Positions 25,861 to 47,269 of a stretch of 64,000 bases of DNA are shown piece after piece. The DNA is taken from the NCBI RefSeq assembly GCF_039851975.1, contig NZ_CP156660.1:682001-746000 (forward strand), given 5' to 3'. Source of the stretch: Desulfoscipio sp. XC116 (GTDB lineage Bacteria; Bacillota; Desulfotomaculia; Desulfotomaculales; Desulfallaceae). Every line of letters starts with the position of its first letter. The first letter of the stretch is position 1. The notes below the pieces were generated by a model that saw only the letters and a list, made by a program, of their open reading frames with translations, made no database searches and was not told the origin of the DNA. Made by a program: the position numbers and the translations under genes.

Positions 25861-26998
<1,138 letters not shown>

Positions 26999-27640: not shown

Positions 27641-27895
27641 ATGGCTAAAACAATTAATGTAACAATACGACTTGACCGGGAAGTAAAAGAAAATGCTGAA
27701 AAGCTGTTTAGCGATTTGGGTATGAATCTTTCCACAGCATTCAATATATTTGTACGCCAAGCTCTGCGTCAGGGCAAAATTCCATTTGAAATTTACGATC
27801 CTTTCTACGGTGAAAAAAATCAAGCAAGGCTTGAGCATTCGATTAAGCATGCTGAGGCAGGTCAGATAACAGTACGCGAGCTGATAGAGGATTGA
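27641..27895 (+). CDS. relB: RelB/DinJ-family antitoxin
   Basis: An 84-residue type II antitoxin. The N-terminal ribbon-helix-helix TINVTIRLDREVKENAEKLF is followed by LGMNLSTAFNIFVRQALRQG, the RelB/DinJ signature that dimerises and binds the promoter, and a C-terminal toxin-binding tail. RBS GGAGGT precedes ATG. The toxin gene that should follow is truncated (27898-28041), so this is an orphan antitoxin. It may still autoregulate its promoter or act on toxins encoded elsewhere. Confidence 0.88.
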   Translation: MAKTINVTIRLDREVKENAEKLFSDLGMNLSTAFNIFVRQALRQGKIPFEIYDPFYGEKNQARLEHSIKHAEAGQITVRELIED

Positions 27896-27897
27896 TT

Positions 27898-28100
27898 ATG
27901 CAAAAGGCATGGACGGGTGAAGCTTGGGAAAATTATATTTACTGGCAGACGCAGGGTGGAAAAATTTTGAAGCTTATCGATGAAATTTTAAAGGATATTA
28001 GCCGTGATCCTTTTTCTGGTATAGGAAAACCGGAGCAATGATAAATTAAAAAGAATTATTGGCGAAAAACAATTGGAGATTGAAATTTCCTGCATTCAAG
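27898..28100 (+). pseudogene. YoeB-family toxin, truncated
   Basis: ATG 27898, two bases after the antitoxin stop, gives MQKAWTGEAWENYIYWQ, then DEILKDISRDPFSGIGKPEQ and tandem stops TGA TAA (28039-28044). YoeB proteins are about 85 residues; the residue corresponding to catalytic Glu46 (GKPE) is kept, but the region carrying Arg65 and His83 is lost. Shortly downstream, in another frame, LEIEISC resembles the family's C-terminal strand, so a deletion with frameshift is likely. The RNase should be inactive. Confidence 0.7.
28087..28100 (+). promoter_or_regulatory. Candidate Cascade target upstream of cas3
   Basis: TTC (28087-28089, the type I-C PAM) is followed by CTGCATTCAAG (28090-28100), which matches CCGCATTCAAG (31038-31048), the spacer-like DNA just after the degenerate repeat in the cas5c leader, with one mismatch. 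The site lies 48-61 bp before the cas3 start. The bases before the PAM (GATTGAAAT, 28078-28086) also resemble a repeat end. Confidence 0.45.
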
Positions 28101-28147
28101 ACAAAGTAGTATGTTCTTGTGGTAGACAGTTTACGAGGAGGATGTTG

Positions 28148-30574
28148 ATGTATATTGCTCGTATCCGGGAAGGAGACAAAAGGAGGCAAGCGTTAAAAGA
28201 GCATTTGCTCGAAGCCAAACGATTAGCAGAATTTTATGGTGCTAAGCTTGGGTTAAAACACGTAGCCGGTTTGGCGGGGATGCTCCATGATCTGGGGAAA
28301 TACAGCGACGAATTCCAAGATTATATTAGGCAAGCGGCGTTTTATCCTGAAGCAGCCGGAGCAAGAAAGGGCCGGGTGGACCATTCCACCGCCGGAGGGA
28401 AACTGTTGTTTGCGATGCTACATAATAACTCCTGCCACGAGAAACTGCTGACCGAAATTATCGGCAATGCAATTATTTCTCACCATGCCAATTTGCATGA
28501 CTATATTTCTCCTTCCAGTGAATCGGGCTATTTAAAACGTGTCCAGGACAAGGACCTTCCCCAGTATGAATCAATTGTTGACCATTTTTTCCAAGAGGTC
28601 ATTACGAAAACAGAATTTAGCGAATATGTTGCAGCTGCTTTGGAGGAGTTAAGGCGATTTATCGACAAAAGCCCGGCACAAAGTTTTTTCTTAACAAAAT
28701 TTATTTTCAGTTGTCTGATTGATGCCGATCGGACTGATGCGAGAAGGTTCGATGAGCAGACTTCGGAATCAGAACTGGAATTAGAAGTAGAGCCCTATCA
28801 GCCCCGGTCGTTGTTTAATAGCTATTACCAAAAACTCATCCGGCATCTGGCTGTGCTGAAAGAAAAAAAAGAAGCCGCCGAGCCCATCAACCTGCTGCGG
28901 GCTGCCATGTCCGAACAGTGTGAACGATTTTCGGAAAAACCCTCCGGCATCTATACGTTATCTATTCCCACAGGGGGCGGCAAAACATTGGCCAGCCTCC
29001 GCTATGCGCTGAAGCATGCGCAAGAACATGGAAAGCAGCGCATTGTTTATGTCGTCCCATTTACCACCATTATTGAACAAAACGCCCGGGAAGTCAGAGA
29101 TATTTTGCATGATAACGAGAACATTTTGGAGCATCATTCCAATGTTTTCGAAGAGGAGCAAGGAAGCGGCGCAGAGGCTGATGAACAGTATGATTTGCTT
29201 ACAAAGAAGGAAAGGCTGAAGCTTGCCCGTGATAGCTGGGACAGCCCGGTCATTTTTACAACCCTTGTTCAGTTTCTCAATGTTTTTTATGCGAAAGGCA
29301 ACCGCAACACACGGCGTTTGCATAACCTAATTCATTCCGTTATCATCTTTGATGAGGTGCAAAAGGTCCCGACCAAATGCGTTTCGCTCTTTAACGAAGC
29401 CTTGAATTTTTTAAAGGAAAAGGCACACTGCAGTATTCTCCTTTGTACGGCGACACAGCCCACCCTTGAGTATGTTAAAAAACACCGCCTTTTAAAAGCG
29501 TTGGACGGAGAAATTGTCCCGGATCTTATTAGTGTTGGCAAAGCTTTTAAACGGGTAGAAATTATTGATAAAACGGACAAGCCAATGACGAATGAACAGT
29601 TGGCGGCCTGGCTTAGGGCTGATGCTCAGGCATGGGGCAGTACCCTTGTGGTACTGAATACTAAAACTGTAGTAAAAAATTTATACAAAAAACTCAAAGG
29701 CGGCCCCTTGCCGGTCTATCATCTAAGTACATCCATGTGTGCGGAGCATCGCCAGACCCGGTTAACGGAAATACGGGAACTGCTTAAAAAAGGCATCCCT
29801 TTTATTTGCGTAACCACCCAGTTGATTGAAGCCGGCGTGGACATCAGCTTCAAATGTGTCGTACGCTCCCTGGCCGGGCTGGATTCCATTGCCCAAGCTG
29901 CTGGGCGGTGCAATCGGCACGGGGAAGACGAGTTGCGGTATGTGTATGTCGTCGATCATGCGGAAGAGAAGTTGTCTAACTTGCCGGAAATTGAGACAGG
30001 CAAAGGAATTGCGGCCAATATTTTTGCAAGATTTAAAAAGAAGGCGGACAAATATGAAGGAAACCTGCTTTCCGAAAAAGCGATGCATGAATATTTTCAG
30101 GTTTTCTATCATAAAGCGGAAGCTGATTTAAACTACTATATTCCCGCAGTGGATAAGGATATGACAAAGCTTTTATTCGCCCAGGCTGCGGAAAACAGTT
30201 ATATCACCTATTATCAAAAGAAAACAGGCAGGCGGTTTCCTTTGTTGCTGAATGGGAGTTATAAAACGGCCGCGGATTACTTTCATGTCATTGAGCAGAA
30301 AACAACCTCCGTCATCGTGCCTTATTGCGCGGGCAAGGAGCTTATTGTTGCGCTTAACAGCAGTGAACGAATCGAAGATTTAACTAAATTTTTCAGGAAA
30401 GCCCAGCACTATACAGTGGATCTTTATTCCCAAGGATTTAATCAATTAAAAAGGCAAGGCGCCATAATAGAGCATCTGGATGGAATGATTTATGAATTAA
30501 AAGAGAATTGGTATAGCAATGAATACGGGGTTGATTTACAAGGGGAAGGCGGGATGGAGTTTGCTTTAATGTAG
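28148..30574 (+). CDS. cas3: CRISPR-associated helicase/nuclease Cas3 (type I-C)
   Basis: An 808-residue fused HD nuclease and superfamily 2 helicase that is recruited by Cascade and degrades the target. N-terminal HD domain: His19, then LHDLGKYSDEF with His47-Asp48, and IISHHANLHDY. Helicase: Walker A IPTGGGKTLAS, the DEVQ box in VIIFDEVQKVP, TATQPT (motif III), TTQLIEAGVDISF (motif V) and QAAGRCNRHGE (motif VI). ATG 28148 lies 6 bases after GAGGAGG (28135-28141) and gives the usual MYIARIRE start. The frame is open upstream to 28073, but there is no ribosome binding site there. It is 540 bp from the next cas gene; that gap contains regulatory-looking repeats. Confidence 0.95.
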   Translation: MYIARIREGDKRRQALKEHLLEAKRLAEFYGAKLGLKHVAGLAGMLHDLGKYSDEFQDYIRQAAFYPEAAGARKGRVDHSTAGGKLLFAMLHNNSCHEKLLTEIIGNAIISHHANLHDYISPSSESGYLKRVQDKDLPQYESIVDHFFQEVITKTEFSEYVAAALEELRRFIDKSPAQSFFLTKFIFSCLIDADRTDARRFDEQTSESELELEVEPYQPRSLFNSYYQKLIRHLAVLKEKKEAAEPINLLRAAMSEQCERFSEKPSGIYTLSIPTGGGKTLASLRYALKHAQEHGKQRIVYVVPFTTIIEQNAREVRDILHDNENILEHHSNVFEEEQGSGAEADEQYDLLTKKERLKLARDSWDSPVIFTTLVQFLNVFYAKGNRNTRRLHNLIHSVIIFDEVQKVPTKCVSLFNEALNFLKEKAHCSILLCTATQPTLEYVKKHRLLKALDGEIVPDLISVGKAFKRVEIIDKTDKPMTNEQLAAWLRADAQAWGSTLVVLNTKTVVKNLYKKLKGGPLPVYHLSTSMCAEHRQTRLTEIRELLKKGIPFICVTTQLIEAGVDISFKCVVRSLAGLDSIAQAAGRCNRHGEDELRYVYVVDHAEEKLSNLPEIETGKGIAANIFARFKKKADKYEGNLLSEKAMHEYFQVFYHKAEADLNYYIPAVDKDMTKLLFAQAAENSYITYYQKKTGRRFPLLLNGSYKTAADYFHVIEQKTTSVIVPYCAGKELIVALNSSERIEDLTKFFRKAQHYTVDLYSQGFNQLKRQGAIIEHLDGMIYELKENWYSNEYGVDLQGEGGMEFALM

Positions 30575-30680: not shown

Positions 30681-30711
30681 AAGAAAAGCCTATCCATTGT
30701 TGAACAGGCTT
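30681..30711 (-). terminator. Minus-strand intrinsic terminator of the crRNA-like RNA
   Basis: On the minus strand AAGCCTGTTCA (30711 down to 30701), loop ACAA, TGGATAGGCTT (30696 to 30686), then TTCTT. It is an 11-bp stem with two G-U pairs. It lies 25 nt after the end of the degenerate repeat at 30737-30760. Confidence 0.6.
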
Positions 30712-30769
30712 CTCTTACTTGTACATACTTATTATTATTTCAATCCGCGCATTAAGCGATTTATTTTAA
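30681..30769 (-). ncRNA. Candidate CreR/CreA-type crRNA-like regulatory RNA
   Basis: A short predicted minus-strand transcript of about 90 nt. A TATAAT (-10) lies at 30781-30776. Next comes a degenerate CRISPR repeat at 30760-30737: ATCGC is kept, the hairpin loop is shortened by 8 nt, and the last 17 nt match the array repeat at 15 positions, ending GGATTGAAAT. A spacer-like AATAATAAGTATGTAC follows, then an intrinsic terminator. Its first 16 spacer bases match the minus strand at 30959-30944, next to a TTC PAM, with mismatches only at positions 6 and 12. Known CreR/CreA RNAs use such short, PAM-adjacent matches to guide Cascade to regulate without cleavage. Function here is inferred. Confidence 0.65.
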
Positions 30770-30775
30770 AATATG

Positions 30776-30781
30776 ATTATA
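30776..30781 (-). promoter_or_regulatory. -10 element of the crRNA-like RNA
   Basis: Minus-strand TATAAT placed to start transcription about 10 nt before the degenerate repeat. The -35 region is poor (TCCAAG at a 17-bp spacing), so another factor or an extended -10 may be needed. Confidence 0.4.
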
Positions 30782-30833
30782 AAACATGAATTAGAACTCT
30801 TGGATGATTTTTATAACTATACAAACTAATATT

Positions 30834-30862
30834 TTGATGTAGGTTATCTCCAGCTGTATACT
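30834..30862 (+). promoter_or_regulatory. Promoter of the cas5c operon
   Basis: TTGATG (30834-30839), 17-bp spacer, TATACT (30857-30862). It is divergent from the crRNA-like RNA promoter, with about 50 bp between them. It gives a leader of about 245 nt that contains the candidate Cascade target and a near-complete CRISPR repeat. Confidence 0.55.
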
Positions 30863-30943
30863 TATTTGTTTCGTTTTAGAGGTTTTCATATTCTTCTCCC
30901 TTCATCCTTTTTTATATATACATATTCAAGGGAGGTAAAAAGG

Positions 30944-30962
30944 GTACTTACTTCTTATTGAA
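30944..30962 (-). promoter_or_regulatory. Candidate Cascade operator in the cas5c leader
   Basis: Read on the minus strand: TTC (30962-30960) then AATAAGAAGTAAGTAC. It matches the spacer of the crRNA-like RNA at 14 of 16 positions with exact PAM placement. A bound Cascade would cover roughly 30962-30925, 60-95 nt downstream of the predicted cas5c operon start site, where it could block elongation. Confidence 0.6.
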
Positions 30963-31005
30963 AATTTTTAAATTGAAACTACTTTTCACACTAACCTCCA
31001 TTTAA
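30958..31005 (+). CDS. Possible 15-codon minigene overlapping the Cascade operator
   Basis: TTG 30958 opens MKIFKLKLLFTLTSI and stops with TAA at 31003-31005, touching the degenerate repeat. The peptide is basic and hydrophobic, like toxic minigene products. The nearest Shine-Dalgarno-like sequence (AAGGG, 30940-30944 region) is 13 nt away and GGAGG (30931-30935) is 22 nt away, so initiation would be poor. Confidence 0.2.
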   Translation: MKIFKLKLLFTLTSI

Positions 31006-31036
31006 TCGCACTCCGCAGTAGTGCGTGGATTGAAAT
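31005..31036 (+). repeat. Degenerate solo CRISPR repeat in the cas5c leader
   Basis: A 32-nt sequence identical to the array repeat at 29 of 32 positions. The three changes fall in the loop and top of the stem (ACTGG becomes GCAGT); the lower stem GCACT/AGTGC and the whole 3' handle GTGGATTGAAAT are intact. Being in the predicted 5' leader of the cas5c operon, it could be cut by the operon's own Cas5c. The DNA after it (CCGCATTCAAG) resembles a target upstream of cas3. Confidence 0.85.
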
Positions 31037-31113
31037 TCCGCATTCAAGGTATTTAGGCAAGTTCAGATTATATTCATAGGTTAATCCCATTTTAAAGGAG
31101 GTGAATCCATAAC

Positions 31114-31824
31114 ATGAAAAATGAAATTCAATTTGAGCTGTACGGTGACTATGCATTGTTTACCGATCCGTTAACAAAGATCGGTGGTGAGAAACTCTCC
31201 TACAGTGTACCAACCTACCAGGCGCTAAAGGGCATCGTAGAATCTATTTATTGGAAGCCAACCATTATTTTCGTCATCGACGAATTGCGTGTCATGAAGC
31301 CGATTCAAATGGAGTCCAAAGGGGTGCGTCCCGTTGAGTATGGAGGCGGGAATACACTTGCCAATTACACATACCTAAAAGATGTCCATTATCAAGTGCG
31401 CGCGCATTTTGATTTTAACCTCAACCGCCCAGACCTGGCCTTTGACCGAATTGAAGGGAAACATTACAGCATCCTGCAACGAGCCCTCCAAGTAGGAGGG
31501 CGGAGAGATATTTTTCTTGGAGCCAGGGAATGCCAGGGATATGTGGAACCGTGTGAGTTTGGCAGCAGCACAGGATGTTATGATGAAGAGGGTATACATC
31601 ACCTGGGGACAATGGTCCACGGCTTCAACTATCCCGATGAAACGGGGCAAAACCGTCTGGAGGTAAGGTTGTGGTCTGTGAAGATGGACAAAGGATATAT
31701 CAAGTTTATAAAGCCGGAAGAGTGTAAAATTGTTCGTCCGGTGAAAGAGATGGAAGCGAAAGGGTTCAGTCCATACAATGTGCAGTCGGCGGAGCAGTTA
31801 CTCCAAGAATTAGGTGGTGAGTAG
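31114..31824 (+). CDS. cas5c: Cas5c (Cas5d), type I-C crRNA endonuclease and Cascade subunit
   Basis: In type I-C systems, which lack Cas6, Cas5c cuts the repeat hairpin and holds the 5' handle of the crRNA. The 236-residue protein opens [20 protein letters not shown] (the Cas5 RAMP start), has [15 protein letters not shown], the conserved [10 protein letters not shown] and [20 protein letters not shown], and the C-terminal [10 protein letters not shown]. The ATG has a near-perfect AAAGGAGGTGA site (31094-31104). It is separated by one base from cas8c and leads a six-gene operon. Confidence 0.95.
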
Positions 31825-36722: not shown

Positions 36723-39700
36723 ATCGCACTCCACTGGAGTGCGTGGATTGAAATACTGTGGACACTTCCAGGCCCCACGCCTCCGCCGATCGCACTCCAC
36801 TGGAGTGCGTGGATTGAAATGACTATGTCTTTGGGCTTTATCCCCAAAATGTTACATCGCACTCCACTGGAGTGCGTGGATTGAAATGACGAAGGCAGCC
36901 TACAGGCTACCGGCGACGTACCATCGCACTCCACTGGAGTGCGTGGATTGAAATTTAAGATTATCAGGAGAGGCAATTATCCATAAAAAATCGCACTCCA
37001 CTGGAGTGCGTGGATTGAAATAAGAATTATATAGTGCTGACATAATTGAGTATAAAATCGCACTCCACTGGAGTGCGTGGATTGAAATTAATCTGAATGA
37101 TACGTCTCCGGTTGCGCTATGATCGCACTCCACTGGAGTGCGTGGATTGAAATAACACCTGTCATAACAACAGGGGTAACTTCTTGACATCGCACTCCAC
37201 TGGAGTGCGTGGATTGAAATCAATGCCCCCGTTTATAATCTCTACGCAGGCGCTTATCGCACTCCACTGGAGTGCGTGGATTGAAATCCAAATCTGTGAA
37301 AGAAGGTCTTGCCCAAGTGCAAATCGCACTCCACTGGAGTGCGTGGATTGAAATTCTTTACGTCGTTTACGAACCCTTTCACCAAATGATCGCACTCCAC
37401 TGGAGTGCGTGGATTGAAATGCTTCATCTGCGCCACCCCGGAACGCTCCTGCCAGATCGCACTCCACTGGAGTGCGTGGATTGAAATAATCTCTTTCCCG
37501 CACTTATCACAAACAACAATATCGCACTCCACTGGAGTGCGTGGATTGAAATTAATCTAAATGATACGTCTCCGGTTGCGCTATGATATCGCACTCCACT
37601 GGAGTGCGTGGATTGAAATCACTTCCCAGGCCCGGCATTCTCGGGCGTATCCCATCGCACTCCACTGGAGTGCGTGGATTGAAATTCAATTGTGACAGTA
37701 TTCGAACCATTAACAACATATCGCACTCCACTGGAGTGCGTGGATTGAAATTAAGTTATATGGGGCCGATGATGATTCCTTGGTTATCGCACTCCACTGG
37801 AGTGCGTGGATTGAAATCGTATACGGAATCAATACCAATCCAGACCGTACCATCGCACTCCACTGGAGTGCGTGGATTGAAATTCTAGGATGAATTGCTG
37901 CCGCTCTAAGCTTATCATCGCACTCCACTGGAGTGCGTGGATTGAAATTCGGGCAGCAAAATACAGTTATTGGCGGGTTGCAAATCGCACTCCACTGGAG
38001 TGCGTGGATTGAAATCGACTTGGCTGCCCAAAGCCATCACAACGGCCCGATCGCACTCCACTGGAGTGCGTGGATTGAAATATTTGGGATTTTATACAAA
38101 CCAGAAATAAGGTTAATCGCACTCCACTGGAGTGCGTGGATTGAAATACTGCCTGTGACGGGCAATGTTGCTATTACTAATAATCGCACTCCACTGGAGT
38201 GCGTGGATTGAAATCTTGGTGCGGCAGCCAGTGCCGGGGAGGTTTTTACATCGCACTCCACTGGAGTGCGTGGATTGAAATATAACCCTGTCAGCGTGCC
38301 GGCAAATATGATACAATCGCACTCCACTGGAGTGCGTGGATTGAAATAAATTTGTCCCGGCTTACAAAACCAAGTTAAACATCGCACTCCACTGGAGTGC
38401 GTGGATTGAAATTGATTTAACCCTCGGCACACCCATAAAGCCAGCCGATCGCACTCCACTGGAGTGCGTGGATTGAAATTTCGTTACCTGGTCTTCGGGC
38501 TTCCCGGTAGCGACGATCGCACTCCACTGGAGTGCGTGGATTGAAATAATGAGGGTATATCAATTTTAGAAAACTTATCTAATCGCACTCCACTGGAGTG
38601 CGTGGATTGAAATTATTTCTAATGTTCGACATGAAAATATTATTACAATCGCACTCCACTGGAGTGCGTGGATTGAAATTTACAGACGAGACTAAAGTAG
38701 TGGAAGGTAAAACTATCGCACTCCACTGGAGTGCGTGGATTGAAATCATCAAAGGATCTGCATCCTTGGAGCAGCTCGGCAGATCGCACTCCACTGGAGT
38801 GCGTGGATTGAAATAATGCTACAAACTTATCTCCGCACACTTCACACGATCGCACTCCACTGGAGTGCGTGGATTGAAATTCCTGTCGGGGGTGACTTTT
38901 GGTATGAGGTTGTAATCGCACTCCACTGGAGTGCGTGGATTGAAATCAGAATAAATACAGCCTGACGGTGGACGGCATCGCATCGCACTCCACTGGAGTG
39001 CGTGGATTGAAATCTGCTGACAGGCTTGGAGACCAAGAGAAGTTGAATCGCACTCCACTGGAGTGCGTGGATTGAAATATCGTTTGTTTTGTACAGGTAA
39101 ACGAGGCCGGCAAATCGCACTCCACTGGAGTGCGTGGATTGAAATCGGTGATAGGTATTGCTAAAGGAGGTGTAAAAATTGTTAAATCGCACTCCACTGG
39201 AGTGCGTGGATTGAAATCGGTGATAGCCAGCTATTACGGCGGTCGCATAGATCGCACTCCACTGGAGTGCGTGGATTGAAATAAATTCGAAACAGTGATA
39301 TCGTACTGGCCGAGCTAATCGCACTCCACTGGAGTGCGTGGATTGAAATACTTCCCTGCCGCTGCACGGGTCACTCTCGTGGTGATCGCACTCCACTGGA
39401 GTGCGTGGATTGAAATGGCAAGTTTACGCGGATCAGTGCGAAAAAAAGCAGATCGCACTCCACTGGAGTGCGTGGATTGAAATGGTATCCCCGTCATGCA
39501 GGGGTAGCTCCAGCTTAATCGCACTCCACTGGAGTGCGTGGATTGAAATATCCCGAATCCCGCAATGCTCGGCTTGGTGACCAGATCGCACTCCACTGGA
39601 GTGCGTGGATTGAAATAAACCGGTGCCCCTCATTTGGCTGGTCAGTAGGGATCGCACTCCACTGGAGTGCGTGGATTGAAATATCCCGGGTCTCAAAGTT

Positions 39701-42700
39701 TACATCAAACGCTCGAGCATCGCACTCCACTGGAGTGCGTGGATTGAAATCAGTAGTTGTTCGCGGGTTGACATAAATTTGAACATCGCACTCCACTGGA
39801 GTGCGTGGATTGAAATGTTTTCGTAGTAGTCTTTGGAGATGTGCGAGTGACCATCGCACTCCACTGGAGTGCGTGGATTGAAATCGGCATACTATCCGGA
39901 GATTTTTCGGTGGTATGGATCGCACTCCACTGGAGTGCGTGGATTGAAATTGACAAAGTATTCTTGCTATCGCGTGTCGAGGCATCGCACTCCACTGGAG
40001 TGCGTGGATTGAAATTAGTGAGCTTGTGCCTGCCCAACTTATGGCCGTATCGCACTCCACTGGAGTGCGTGGATTGAAATAATTTCCGGTGACGATACCG
40101 GTGGTGATGAGCAAATCGCACTCCACTGGAGTGCGTGGATTGAAATAAAGGTGGATGGCATATACAAGATTATGTTAGGGAATCGCACTCCACTGGAGTG
40201 CGTGGATTGAAATAATCAGGTGAAGGCACTTACCATCTTGGATCAAAGATCGCACTCCACTGGAGTGCGTGGATTGAAATATCCTGGGTGTGTGTCCGAC
40301 CTGCGGGTCAGAAATTATCGCACTCCACTGGAGTGCGTGGATTGAAATATCCCTTTTGCAGACTAGTTTGATGCTTTTATTTAATCGCACTCCACTGGAG
40401 TGCGTGGATTGAAATATTGGAGTATAGCACGTGACGTACGTACTGTAAAATCGCACTCCACTGGAGTGCGTGGATTGAAATTGTGGCCTTTGCGTCCGAT
40501 ATCGCCAATACTGTAGCATCGCACTCCACTGGAGTGCGTGGATTGAAATTCTGCCGGCATTTGTCAATGTTGCAGTCCACTTAATCGCACTCCACTGGAG
40601 TGCGTGGATTGAAATTTCTGAACACGTCAGATTTATTGATGACCAGACAATCGCACTCCACTGGAGTGCGTGGATTGAAATTACAACTACATCTAGAGTA
40701 TATTTTAGTTGGACATCGCACTCCACTGGAGTGCGTGGATTGAAATACTTTCAGCGTTTAAATCACACCAAATGAGCCAGGATCGCACTCCACTGGAGTG
40801 CGTGGATTGAAATATCCGCCAGCCAGGCGATAATACGAGCTTCGATTATCGCACTCCACTGGAGTGCGTGGATTGAAATAGACGGTGGGACTATAACAAC
40901 GTTATACGTAAAAAATCGCACTCCACTGGAGTGCGTGGATTGAAATACTGAATGGATGGCGGCATATAACAGTGATAACAAATCGCACTCCACTGGAGTG
41001 CGTGGATTGAAATAACGGTATGGGAAGGTATAAAGCAGATATTTACAATCGCACTCCACTGGAGTGCGTGGATTGAAATGGCCTCTTTGTTGCTTTTAAA
41101 CGGCGATTTACCAAATCGCACTCCACTGGAGTGCGTGGATTGAAATCTGCATAATTGCCTCTTTCCACGCAGCCGTTCCATCGCACTCCACTGGAGTGCG
41201 TGGATTGAAATCCCTACTCGGAGAAGTAGATCTTGTCTGTCACCATCGCACTCCACTGGAGTGCGTGGATTGAAATGGATTATCCTTATTCCCTTGATCC
41301 GCTAGATTCTATCGCACTCCACTGGAGTGCGTGGATTGAAATATTCCTTTACCTGAAAAATACTCCATATAAGGAAAATCGCACTCCACTGGAGTGCGTG
41401 GATTGAAATGTCCTACCGGGTGATCCATAGTGCCCCCGCATTGGATCGCACTCCACTGGAGTGCGTGGATTGAAATCGTTAGTTAACCAGAAATTACGAA
41501 AGGAGGTGCCGATCGCACTCCACTGGAGTGCGTGGATTGAAATCGTAATTACGAAGAAAGCTTTGATGGTTACGCAATCGCACTCCACTGGAGTGCGTGG
41601 ATTGAAATCACCAACCACATGATTTTCCGCCCTCGGGGCATCATCGCACTCCACTGGAGTGCGTGGATTGAAATGGTAATATACACATTACTAGACCGAT
41701 GGCAAAAATCGCACTCCACTGGAGTGCGTGGATTGAAATCTCTGGATCATCAATGCTTACAATACCGGTAACATCGCACTCCACTGGAGTGCGTGGATTG
41801 AAATCTCGACGCTATGTTGCAGGCGCTCTTGGATGTCGGATCGCACTCCACTGGAGTGCGTGGATTGAAATACCAACTAAAACACCGAAACAGGATCCGG
41901 AACCGGTTATCGCACTCCACTGGAGTGCGTGGATTGAAATACCAACTTCAAGCCCGTTTCGGTAGGGAATAAAATCGCACTCCACTGGAGTGCGTGGATT
42001 GAAATTACGAATTTTACCTTCGGAAACCGCCACCATTGCTATCGCACTCCACTGGAGTGCGTGGATTGAAATGTAGATATTACCGATAACCTCAATAGCG
42101 TGGTTGATCGCACTCCACTGGAGTGCGTGGATTGAAATTCAGATGGGCCTGGCCATTGCTAACGGCGGTGCTGATCGCACTCCACTGGAGTGCGTGGATT
42201 GAAATCAGACTTGCCTACTCCAATTGTACCATATCATGCCCATCGCACTCCACTGGAGTGCGTGGATTGAAATATCGTAGTACACATGTAGCCAAGCAAT
42301 GCCCTTGATCGCACTCCACTGGAGTGCGTGGATTGAAATAACATGCCAATCCTTTAACCGCACCGCTTCTAACATCGCACTCCACTGGAGTGCGTGGATT
42401 GAAATTTTTGTTTCCGGCTCAATGCCGAATAGCGAAGCCCATCGCACTCCACTGGAGTGCGTGGATTGAAATAACTCCACCCCGATGAACCGACGCCCCA
42501 TTTTGAATCGCACTCCACTGGAGTGCGTGGATTGAAATGCTCCGTTAAGGTTTTAGCTGGCAAGCCATCAGAATCGCACTCCACTGGAGTGCGTGGATTG
42601 AAATACCTCCTACCTTACTGTCCATCCCAGCAGCCAAAATCGCACTCCACTGGAGTGCGTGGATTGAAATAATCGTTCGTTTTGTCTGTCGGCGGCGGTG

Positions 42701-45700
42701 TGTTTGATCGCACTCCACTGGAGTGCGTGGATTGAAATTTTCGGGATAAAACTATCCTTCGGAAGCGTAACATCGCACTCCACTGGAGTGCGTGGATTGA
42801 AATCGGGTGGAAATTTTGACTAGCGACGGGGACTGCATCGCACTCCACTGGAGTGCGTGGATTGAAATACCCTGTAAGATAAAATTTACGCCGTTATAGC
42901 GTAATCGCACTCTACTGGAGTGCGTGGATTGAAATCACGATGTCCTCCAGCGCGTCCAATTTTCCCCCATCGCACTCTACTGGAGTGCGTGGATTGAAAT
43001 CCACAGTTGTTGTTTGGTCAGGGACTCAAGCTTTATCGCACTCTACTGGAGTGCGTGGATTGAAATATTTAAGCTAATAGACGCCCGGCCTTGGGTTTTC
43101 ATCGCACTCTACTGGAGTGCGTGGATTGAAATATCCCTACGGGTAAATATAAAAGCCTCTCCTGCAGATCGCACTCTACTGGAGTGCGTGGATTGAAATA
43201 AGATATACTACAGGTGACATAGCCCCCAAACTACATCGCACTCTACTGGAGTGCGTGGATTGAAATACTGTTGGTCACCTCCGGTCGTGTCCGCCTCAAT
43301 ATCGCACTCTACTGGAGTGCGTGGATTGAAATCTCAACGATCCCATCACGCTGCTTCTCCAGGCTCATCGCACTCTACTGGAGTGCGTGGATTGAAATAT
43401 GACGTACGGTTATCACGAGGGGTATTCCTTCGATCGCACTCTACTGGAGTGCGTGGATTGAAATACTAACTCCACCGGCACCTGATACCTTTCTGCAAAT
43501 CGCACTCTACTGGAGTGCGTGGATTGAAATACATATCGAGAGCGGCCACCGGCACCGAGGCGTGAGGATCGCACTCTACTGGAGTGCGTGGATTGAAATC
43601 AGTAAGGATTGAGGCAAGGGCGTATTTCAGAAATAATGCATCGCACTCTACTGGAGTGCGTGGATTGAAATCAGTACCGGGAGGCGCTGAAGGAGCATCT
43701 GGAAAATCGCACTCTACTGGAGTGCGTGGATTGAAATAGAAAGAGGTAATATTGATGGCCAGGAATATGTTTATCGCACTCTACTGGAGTGCGTGGATTG
43801 AAATCTTACATCCTTATTAAACTTGTATAATCCCGGAGATCGCACTCTACTGGAGTGCGTGGATTGAAATAAAATAAAGGTTGTCCCATAAAACTTGTAC
43901 CAATAATCGCACTCTACTGGAGTGCGTGGATTGAAATAATTACTTCCCAATCTATATGCACAGCTGAGTCATATCGCACTCTACTGGAGTGCGTGGATTG
44001 AAATGGCCATAACGTCGGTGTTAACGATTACGTCTGATAATCGCACTCTACTGGAGTGCGTGGATTGAAATAAAAGTGCGCCTGGGAGCGATTTGGCAAG
44101 GCAGAATCGCACTCTACTGGAGTGCGTGGATTGAAATTATGTCAGGGGTACCAATGTTGCCAAGCTTATTACATCGCACTCTACTGGAGTGCGTGGATTG
44201 AAATCATAATATTATACTCAGCCATTAATTCAATTAACGGATCGCACTCTACTGGAGTGCGTGGATTGAAATGTCACTGAACGCTGCAGTATAGTCGCTG
44301 TTTAAAATCGCACTCTACTGGAGTGCGTGGATTGAAATAGATATTACCGAATAATGACGCCGCCGATAACACATCGCACTCTACTGGAGTGCGTGGATTG
44401 AAATCGAAGTTAGCTCAAGCACCCACTCATTTTGGGACATCGCACTCTACTGGAGTGCGTGGATTGAAATACTTACACCCGCCAGGCCCTGGGCCTTGGC
44501 TCTGATCGCACTCTACTGGAGTGCGTGGATTGAAATCTTCTAGGATACGAACTTTTGTCCTTGTCATCCCAATCTCATTCTACTGGAGTGCGTGGATTGA
44601 AATTGCTGGGTGACGTCGTTCGGATTGCAGCCGAGTCCATCGCACTCTACTGGAGTGCGTTGATTGAAATCATCCCGGTATGTCGTTACCAGCCAAACAC
44701 TCAGTCATCGCACTCTACTGGAGTGCGTGGATTGAAATTTCTAACATCTAATAGAGCGGGCCTTATTCCTTATCGCACTCTACTGGAGTGCGTGGATTGA
44801 AATAGCAATGTCGATAAGAAGTAAGATGAGCAATAGCAATCGCACTCTACTGGAGTGCGTGGATTGAAATAGATTGACAGAGATTTGATCAGGCCGGAGA
44901 ATACGATCGCACTCTACTGGAGTGCGTGGATTGAAATACCTAGTCCTGATATAACGCAGCCAGCAGAAAAACCATCGCACTCTACTGGAGTGCGTGGATT
45001 GAAATCCCGCCTCTATCGAACCCTTCTCATAAGACCACCATCGCACTCTACTGGAGTGCGTGGATTGAAATCTGAAGGTGGATCCACCTCCCTGGGAGCA
45101 TTTGACATCGCACTCTACTGGAGTGCGTGGATTGAAATCTGAAGGTGGATCCACCTCCCTGGGAGCATTTGACATCGCACTCTACTGGAGTGCGTGGATT
45201 GAAATTCCAAAACAAGCCGATCCGCCTGGATATGAACCCATCGCACTCTACTGGAGTGCGTGGATTGAAATACCTATAAAGACGGCAAAATACGCGATGA
45301 ATTTAATCGCACTCTACTGGAGTGCGTGGATTGAAATTCTTATATGACGAGGAAAACGATCGGGAAATTATCATCGCACTCTACTGGAGTGCGTGGATTG
45401 AAATACCCCCTGCAGGCATTATAAAACCCCTGGCGAATTATCGCACTCTACTGGAGTGCGTGGATTGAAATAAATAGACCGCCTGTTTGGGTGGTAAAAA
45501 ATATAGATCGCACTCTACTGGAGTGCGTGGATTGAAATTATGACAAGGGCTAATAGTGAGAAATACAAGGAAATCGCACTCTACTGGAGTGCGTGGATTG
45601 AAATCCTGACTTCTTGCCGCATATTTGGCACTTCAAGGATCGCACTCTACTGGAGTGCGTGGATTGAAATGTCCTGACTCTCAGTGAGAATATGTTCAGC

Positions 45701-47269
45701 AGCATCATCGCACTCTACTGGAGTGCGTGGATTGAAATGGCAATCGCACCATGTATTTTTGCCACTGTTTCCATCGCACTCTACTGGAGTGCGTGGATTG
45801 AAATCAGCAGAGGAAAGAAACGCTGGCAAGGTATTACATCGCACTCTACTGGAGTGCGTGGATTGAAATCAAATAAGCAGGTGATTATTTGGCAGTAAAT
45901 GTAAATCGCACTCTACTGGAGTGCGTGGATTGAAATCATGAGTACCACGGAGATACGAAAGAGTTAAGCCGATCGCACTCTACTGGAGTGCGTGGATTGA
46001 AATTGGTTATGGTGGCCTGGCCTTCGCTGCCGTCCTCATCGCACTCTACTGGAGTGCGTGGATTGAAATCCGCCAGGGGAATTGCCAGCAATCTATCCGA
46101 ACTATCGCACTCTACTGGAGTGCGTGGATTGAAATTGTGTGGTGGTGGGGGGCTTTGGTGGCTTTATATTATCGCACTCTACTGGAGTGCGTGGATTGAA
46201 ATTTAAAGGCGGCTTGGGGCTAAACCCTGTAAAGCCCATCGCACTCTACTGGAGTGCGTGGATTGAAATAACAGGATATGGTTGAGGCTGGTGTACAAGC
46301 TCTATCGCACTCTACTGGAGTGCGTGGATTGAAATTACTATTTGGAGGGATGCCAAGTGAAAGTTAAAGATCGCACTCTACTGGAGTGCGTGGATTGAAA
46401 TTAATCGAGGTATTCAATGGCGATGCTACCCCTATAAATCGCACTCCACTGGAGTGCGTGGATTGAAATTTGAAAAGGGCTGGCACAAGCTGAAGGTAGC
46501 TGGCAGGATCGCACTCCACTGGAGTGCGTGGATTGAAATAAAGCTGGCGGCAACACCCTGGGCGTTATTATTCATCGCACTCCACTGGAGTGCGTGGATT
46601 GAAATCGATTCTTGCAGCAGCTCATCCAGCTCCGCATCAATCGCACTCCACTGGAGTGCGTGGATTGAAATTGGGCAACGCCAGCAGTGGAAGCGGGGGA
46701 GACCATCGCACTCCACTGGAGTGCGTGGATTGAAATATCATAATCAAATATTTCCTCTAAAGTCATTACATCGCACTCCACTGGAGTGCGTGGATTGAAA
46801 TAAATCCAGCCAAGCTAATTGCGCTATCTCCTGATCATCGCACTCCACTGGAGTGCGTGGATTGAAATCTCCATTTTTTGGCTCACCTCGCTAATGTGAT
46901 TGATTATCGCACTCCACTGGAGTGCGTGGATTGAAATCATCATCGTCGGGACTAAGCCGACGTCCCGAACCGATCGCACTCCACTGGAGTGCGTGGATTG
47001 AAATTTTAATCCGTACCTGTAGCTTTTAGATTAGAAGGATCGCACTCCACTGGAGTGCGTGGATTGAAATAGTTCAGCCAGGTCAAATTTCTCTGTATTA
47101 TTAAATCGCACTCCACTGGAGTGCGTGGATTGAAATCATCCGAACCAAGCTGGAGTTGCTTGTTGAAAAAATCGCACTCCACTGGAGTGCGTGGATTGAA
47201 ATTAAAAGTACGGGTGACGGTCATATTGTAAACACCAATCGCACTCCACTGGAGTGCGTGGATTGAAAT
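36723..47269 (+). CRISPR. Type I-C CRISPR array, 159 repeats by manual count
   Basis: The 32-nt repeat starts ATCGCACTCC and ends GTGCGTGGATTGAAAT, with a GCACTCC / GGAGTGC stem and an ACT loop. Spacers are mostly 33-36 nt, up to 40 nt (39146-39185). My hand count gives 159 repeats and 158 spacers. There are three blocks by base 10 of the repeat: C at repeats 1-93 (36723-42868), T at 94-146 (42904-46401), C again at 147-159 (46438-47269). The T keeps the stem as a G-U pair. Repeats at 44572 and 44639 are degenerate. Two spacers are near-identical and one is tandemly duplicated. All long frames inside the array are repeat translations. Confidence 0.99.

Follow-up and report, generated by a model that had tools for sequence, protein, structure and literature searches.

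A small CRISPR-like RNA probably steers type I-C Cascade to the switch of a 32-amino acid gene that immune damage would turn on

CRISPR-regulated toxin-antitoxins (CreTA, type VIII) are described, in the available text of the papers cited here, from type I-B systems of haloarchaea and type I-F systems of Acinetobacter (PMC8501985, PMC10097628, PMC9458426, PMC8730458). The H. hispanica CreTA contains a single repeat and is closed by a terminator, and that of the Acinetobacter I-F system is located between cas3 and csy1 and has a conserved 33-bp mini-ORF (PMC8501985, PMC10097628). As far as the accessible parts of the sources go, CreR has been named for types I-B, I-E, and V-A (PMC13131331), is assigned to type I and V-A in general (PMC12737573), and is further treated in PMC12948488. 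In the portions available, the CreP of CrePA is typically a KilA-N protein (PMC12737573), Racrs are encoded by viral genomes and inhibit the CRISPR system (PMC10651486), and type I-C is one of the commonest subtypes (PMC7684278). Among the matches listed, which were mostly outside subscription journals, none dealt with CreR or CreTA in a type I-C system.

The window analyzed here, a 64,000-nucleotide stretch of the Desulfoscipio sp. XC116 genome, contains a type I-C locus in the order cas3 (28073–30574, + strand; the ORF as listed, whose true start may be further in), a 539-bp gap, cas5c (31114–31824, + strand; TIGR01876, E 1.1e-90), cas8c, cas7c, cas4, and cas1c. The CRISPR array (36723–47269, + strand) has the repeat ATCGCACTCCACTGGAGTGCGTGGATTGAAAT and 158 exact matches to the handle GGATTGAAAT, the first at 36745 and the last at 47260. 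Across the whole window, tmRNA was the sole match to Rfam at gathering scores. The reading we favor, with moderate confidence, is that the cas3–cas5c gap holds a CreTA-like addiction module that relies on type I-C Cascade and has a candidate 32-codon toxin. In such a module, a tiny CRISPR-like RNA probably steers Cascade to the switch of the 32-amino acid gene, and damage to the immune system would turn the gene on.

Several other features were observed around cas3. The sequence GATTGAAATTTCCTGCATTCAAG at 28078–28100, upstream of cas3, resembles the cas5c-leader sequence GATTGAAATTCCGCATTCAAG at 31028–31048 when the two are aligned by eye with two 1-nt gaps. The region just upstream of cas3 (27641–28100) holds what we take, by eye, to be a RelB/DinJ-like ORF followed by an apparent truncated YoeB-like frame. 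Further upstream, two ORFs at 26137–26998 match separate parts of phosphoenolpyruvate-synthase profiles and are probably a broken gene.

Guide element, target site, and microgene in the cas3–cas5c gap

The minus strand of the gap carries a −10-like TATAAT (30776–30781) for which no −35 of at least three matches was found at 16–18 nt, a 24-nt shortened ectopic CRISPR repeat (ATCGCTTAATGCGCGGATTGAAAT, 30737–30760) with its 3′ handle GGATTGAAAT intact, a 16-nt guide (AATAATAAGTATGTAC, 30721–30736), and a terminator hairpin (30681–30716) that starts four bases past the guide. All of these parts are located where an earlier note on this DNA had placed them. Compared with the array repeat, the ectopic repeat is missing 8 nt from the stem-loop. 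The 89-nt RNA from 30769 to 30681 has a predicted fold of −23.5 kcal/mol (z −4.4), which none of 200 shuffles equaled; the degenerate repeat outside the array and this predicted fold bear out the suggestion that the element encodes a crRNA-like RNA. The element consists of one shortened repeat and a 16-nt guide that leads into the terminator, unlike an array-type unit, in which full repeats flank an array-length spacer.

The guide matches a target site (AATAAGAAGTAAGTAC, 30944–30959, minus strand) adjacent to a TTC protospacer-adjacent motif (30960–30962, minus strand), with mismatches at positions 6 and 12 alone, as previously noted. TTC is given as the type I-C motif in the text available from PMC8406640. 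In the 4.26-Mb genome, TTC with the 14 other positions occurs once with no mismatch, making the full match unique, and once more with one mismatch.

A second, nearly complete ectopic repeat with the spacer-like sequence TCCGCATTCAAGGTAT is located in the cas5c leader (31004–31036, + strand). It was dropped as a candidate second guide because the spacer-like sequence has no TTC match with two or fewer mismatches in the genome; at three mismatches there are 11 places, one of which is the sequence itself, and the reversed control has 1. This repeat is perhaps a Cas5c cleavage site in the enzyme's own mRNA.

Behind the target site on the minus strand, a −35-like TTTACC (30934–30939) begins 23 nt after the PAM start and is followed 17 nt behind by a −10-like TATAAA (30911–30916), with 9/12 consensus matches overall. 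The promoter-like sequence (TTTACC-17-TATAAA) faces away from cas5c and into a 32-codon ORF (MKTSKTKQISIQLEITYIKILVCIVIKIIQEF, 30791–30889, minus strand), which is preceded by a Shine-Dalgarno-like GGGAG (30896–30900) and is the toxin candidate; its predicted product has no Pfam match at E ≤ 1. Read along the minus strand, the gap is arranged as site, promoter, ORF, TATAAT, and crRNA-like gene, which is the creT-creA order. The earlier note had correctly recognized the guide unit, and it overlooked the minus-strand promoter, the 32-codon ORF, and the second repeat.

In the proposed mechanism, the minus-strand element would encode a short, CreA-type crRNA-like RNA, the degenerate repeat would be cleaved by Cas5c, and Cascade would form on the 5′ handle and the 16-nt guide. 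The complex would then occupy the TTC site just upstream of the minus-strand promoter and block transcription of the 32-codon microgene, and pairing over about 16 nt should not license cleavage. Since Cascade would be the repressor, its loss or inhibition would release the microgene. We infer transcription of the module, binding of Cascade, and toxicity of the peptide or its RNA.

Covariation of guide and site among type I-C relatives

Relatives were gathered by Cas5c, and removal of 20 near-copies from 167 left 147 non-redundant loci, a count that never included L010, L011, L193–L196, and L198–L202. The weakest Cas5c matches (L020–L038) may not be type I-C. In relatives, the closest long reading frame upstream was used to mark the end of cas3, and some loci extend only 1.5 kb upstream, so that pairs upstream of cas3 are missed there. 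Ectopic handles, the counterparts of the window's shortened repeat, were accepted outside the array with at most one mismatch, and a site within 700 nt was scored over 14 positions (the first 16 minus 6 and 12).

An ectopic handle with its own guide and a TTC site at ≥13/14 was present in 53 of the 147 loci, and in 56 at ≥12; the 91 loci with no pair at ≥12 are explained in part by short gaps or cut flanks. Among the 53 pairs there are 45 distinct 16-nt guides, and guide and site must therefore have changed together many times. When no triplet was required, TTC was found at 55/55 matches of ≥13/14 near isolated handles. An earlier count of 81 loci, with arrays included, gave TTC 41 times, AAT 11, CAA 7, CGT 1, and AAC 1, and the AAT rows shown were duplicate array spacers. 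In a cross-pairing control of 44 loci, the locus's own guide reached 13–14 next to TTC in 36/44 cases, compared with 77/1892 for foreign guides, homologous guides included.

In type I Cascade, every sixth base of the guide stays unpaired. This rule was not found in the available text of a type I-C structure paper (PMC11417383). Across the 53 pairs, position 6 matches in 8 and position 12 in 18, in line with the free sixth positions that had been pointed out in the window. Matches number 52 at position 1, 53 at each of positions 2–5, 7–8, 10–11, and 15, 52 at positions 9 and 13, 51 at 14, 43 at 16, 29 at 17, and 18 at 18, where the threshold itself accounts for part of the high values and positions 6, 12, 17, and 18 are unscored. 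Positions 6 and 12 are thus free, and pairing fades past position 16, near the start of the terminator.

The covariation that the earlier note had proposed to look for in the cas3–cas5c gaps of relatives is strongly evident from these 53 loci and 45 guides, and the pairs also support its view of a TTC motif with guidance by short pairing. Loci that keep the repeat and lose the match, which it had named as counterevidence, do exist and are rare: of the 44 loci whose gap contains a handle, 6 (L042, L046, L048, L104, L110, and L112) have no TTC match of ≥12/14. The handles of L110 and L112 are unlike repeats, and in L112 a match of 12/14 lies beside CTC. No plasmid DNA matched the gap at E ≤ 1e-5, and the plasmid records L190–L192 (3 of 35) contained no pair.

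The placement of sites varies in some relatives. L047, L050, and L074 have a second TTC match to their own guide 20–33 nt from the first, forming tandem sites. In L114 and L116, minus-strand sites are located 12–32 nt before cas5c, with the PAM abutting the cas5c ribosome-binding region. In L094, cas5c is 19 nt from a long upstream ORF, and the guide and a 13/14 site are located about 2.8 kb upstream of cas5c, probably before cas3. Copies upstream of cas3 are few (L094 at 13/14 and L115 at 12/14).

Promoters and reading frames at the paired sites

The Cas5c of relative L161 is 83% identical to that of the window, and the first 16 guide bases are identical. In L161, the site (TTC AATAAAAAGTAAGTAC) and the ORF (MITVLISVKIEILYPKILLRIVKAI) are on the + strand, opposite to the window, and the site and ORF DNA of both L161 and a further relative, L162, aligns with the window's minus strand. 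Across the three loci the site is invariant save for position 6 (G, A, and C), and the ORF cores, over a stretch chosen by eye, have 11/21 identical residues between the window and L161, 7/21 between L161 and L162, and 3/21 between the window and L162. The L161 promoter is poor by consensus (7/12) and off the usual place. As read from these alignments, the unit of site and ORF is turned round relative to cas5c with guide pairing kept, which would be hard to explain were cas5c the purpose of the guide. L162 retains the target site; a search of its gap that allowed two mismatches in the handle and four in the guide found no creA, and no Shine-Dalgarno was seen ahead of the ORF. This state, a single case, fits the expectation that a toxin must fall silent once its antidote is gone. 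In the genome G667 (L200 and L201), cas3 is cut down, cas5c is split, and the short gap contains no module, a state consistent with the entire system decaying and of little weight as proof.

A sigma-A-like promoter of ≥9/12 with its −35 located 16–31 nt past the PAM start was found at 37/53 sites, where shuffles expect 5.8; the offset was searched from 14 to 32, and this range was set after examples were known. The parts of the module, the unique pairing, the covariation with free positions 6 and 12, this geometry of site and promoter-like sequence, and the inverted relative that is still paired are all read directly from sequence.

In an alternative reading, Cascade bound at the site would act as CreR, blocking upstream + strand transcription or shutting a nearby + strand promoter and thereby repressing the cas5c operon. 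In 31 of 135 tree rows, fewer than 140 nt and no ORF separate the site from the downstream cas5c, and these rows look like CreR autorepression of the cas5c promoter. Within the window, a + strand promoter (TTGATG-17-TATACT, 30834–30862) scores 9/12, equal to the minus-strand promoter, and would place the site inside the cas5c leader, where Cascade could hinder + strand transcription toward cas5c. On the other hand, the strand of the site faces away from cas5c, the best + strand promoter at the site itself reaches 8/12 compared with 9/12 for the minus-strand promoter at the family's usual offset, and the L161 unit is reversed relative to cas5c with its pairing kept. We therefore consider this reading unlikely for the window. 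The repression of cas5c that the earlier note had inferred fits the arrangement in those 31 rows and is not supported for the window locus. Its view of the target as the cas5c operon's leader likewise lacks support in the window: the site occupies the minus strand, ahead of the 32-codon ORF and 23 nt before the minus-strand −35, and the unit is inverted in L161.

Of the 49 loci in which reading frames behind the sites were examined, 22 carry the site on the minus strand or at a distance of ≥140 nt from cas5c, and in 11 of these 22 a Shine-Dalgarno-led ORF of ≥18 codons follows the site. Shuffles expect 1.03 (0.017 for the window alone), and the test was devised after such ORFs were known. The strict ORFs have 24–35 codons in the window (32), L041, L043, L044, L047, L050, L051, and L161, and are longer in L072 (142 aa), L074 (140 aa), and L142 (93 aa). 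The L142 ORF was dropped as a toxin candidate because it looks, by eye, like transposase OrfA. Further ORFs outside the strict test are present in L040, L090, and L197, and a 10-codon ORF in L049; all four loci were assigned to the ORF type manually when the tree was annotated. In a quick Cas5c tree of 135 rows, 11 of the 16 ORF-type rows fall in a clade of 16 that surrounds the window, with a support of 89, under the mark of 95. L039, which the tree places nearest to the window (86% identity), carries a 14/14 guide–site pair, and none of its ORFs satisfies the strict test.

Comparison of the ORFs provides modest evidence that the window's 32-codon frame is coding. In-frame similarity was the best of six frames in 5/7 ORF comparisons and tied for L197–L043, and for window–L162 the reverse frame scored 18 compared with 17 in frame. 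The number of random placements reaching the similarity, out of 5000, was 0 for L041–L197, 74 for L041–L043, 137 for window–L161, 212 for L197–L043, 378 for L047–L050, 541 for L161–L162, and 792 for window–L162.

Some sites are followed by larger genes. In L087 (Paenibacillus alvei), a 218-aa DUF4062 protein (L087:2953–3609; Pfam E 1.3e-20) is encoded behind a 14/14 site, between the long ORF taken as cas3 and cas5c. The L074 protein has a weak match to Nuc_deoxyrib_tr (E 0.0008, below the family cut-off), and the 142-aa ORF of L072 has no Pfam match. These larger proteins argue against a reading in which the small ORFs specify leader peptides, or harmless peptides of another kind, that the guide regulates along with cas5c. 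In the + strand loci inspected, an ORF does lie between promoter and cas5c, and by eye most of them have a hairpin between ORF and cas5c in an attenuator-like arrangement; however, the ORF of the window lies on the opposite strand to cas5c and could not serve as its leader, and we regard this reading as improbable. A decayed array remnant with a chance match, suggested by the shortened repeat and by the 6/44 loci whose handle has no ≥12/14 TTC match, is ruled out in practice by the covariation across 45 distinct guides, the TTC at 55/55 matches, the free positions 6 and 12, the guide kept in L161, and the window's unique genome site, all of which also uphold the earlier opinion that the unit is hard to explain by chance.

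Beyond the favored addiction module, these loci allow a broader and more tentative idea, in which the type I-C Cascade of Bacillota may be a general RNA-guided repressor whose lone guide has repeatedly been re-aimed at the cas5c promoter, at micropeptide toxins, and at larger effector-like genes (the DUF4062 gene of L087 and the Nuc_deoxyrib_tr-like gene of L074), and an anti-CRISPR disabling Cascade would trigger a stored suicide gene. The two arrangements, autorepression and addiction, appear to be adjoining forms of a single module, and the question of how CRISPR-linked toxin-antitoxins arose thereby becomes testable. The microgenes, for their part, are candidates for sensing an attack by anti-CRISPRs. 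That positions 6 and 12 are free in 45 distinct guides would be natural evidence that the type I-C complex skips every sixth base, and pairing over about 16 nt would appear to suffice for regulation.

Comparison with described systems

A lone CRISPR-like repeat is shared with Racrs, which belong to viral or mobile genomes, whereas the window's element is located between cas3 and cas5c and its guide has a matched site. The restraint of a protein gene by a CreA-type RNA recalls CrePA, but in place of a KilA-N toxin the window has a 32-aa ORF with no Pfam match at E ≤ 1. With CreR, the window shares a putative crRNA-like RNA with partial, PAM-flanked complementarity to a promoter in the cas locus; however, the target of CreR is the promoter of the cas operon, and the window's site and promoter face away from cas5c, on which Cascade may have an indirect effect.

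The likeness to CreTA is closer. The window has a degenerate ectopic repeat outside the array that is crRNA-like by sequence and predicted fold, and TTC-flanked seed pairing at positions 1–5 and 7–11 at the promoter (by consensus match) of a putative neighboring small gene within the cas locus. It differs from described CreTA in belonging to type I-C, in which, in the text available, crRNA is processed by Cas5 and not Cas6 (PMC10651486), in the longer ORFs of the type I-C loci (24–39 codons, weaker cases included), and in a toxin-side unit that is inverted relative to that of L161. The best reading is that the window's module works like CreTA, with the toxin as a candidate; CreTA and CreR are known kinds, and the type I-C form appears to be new.
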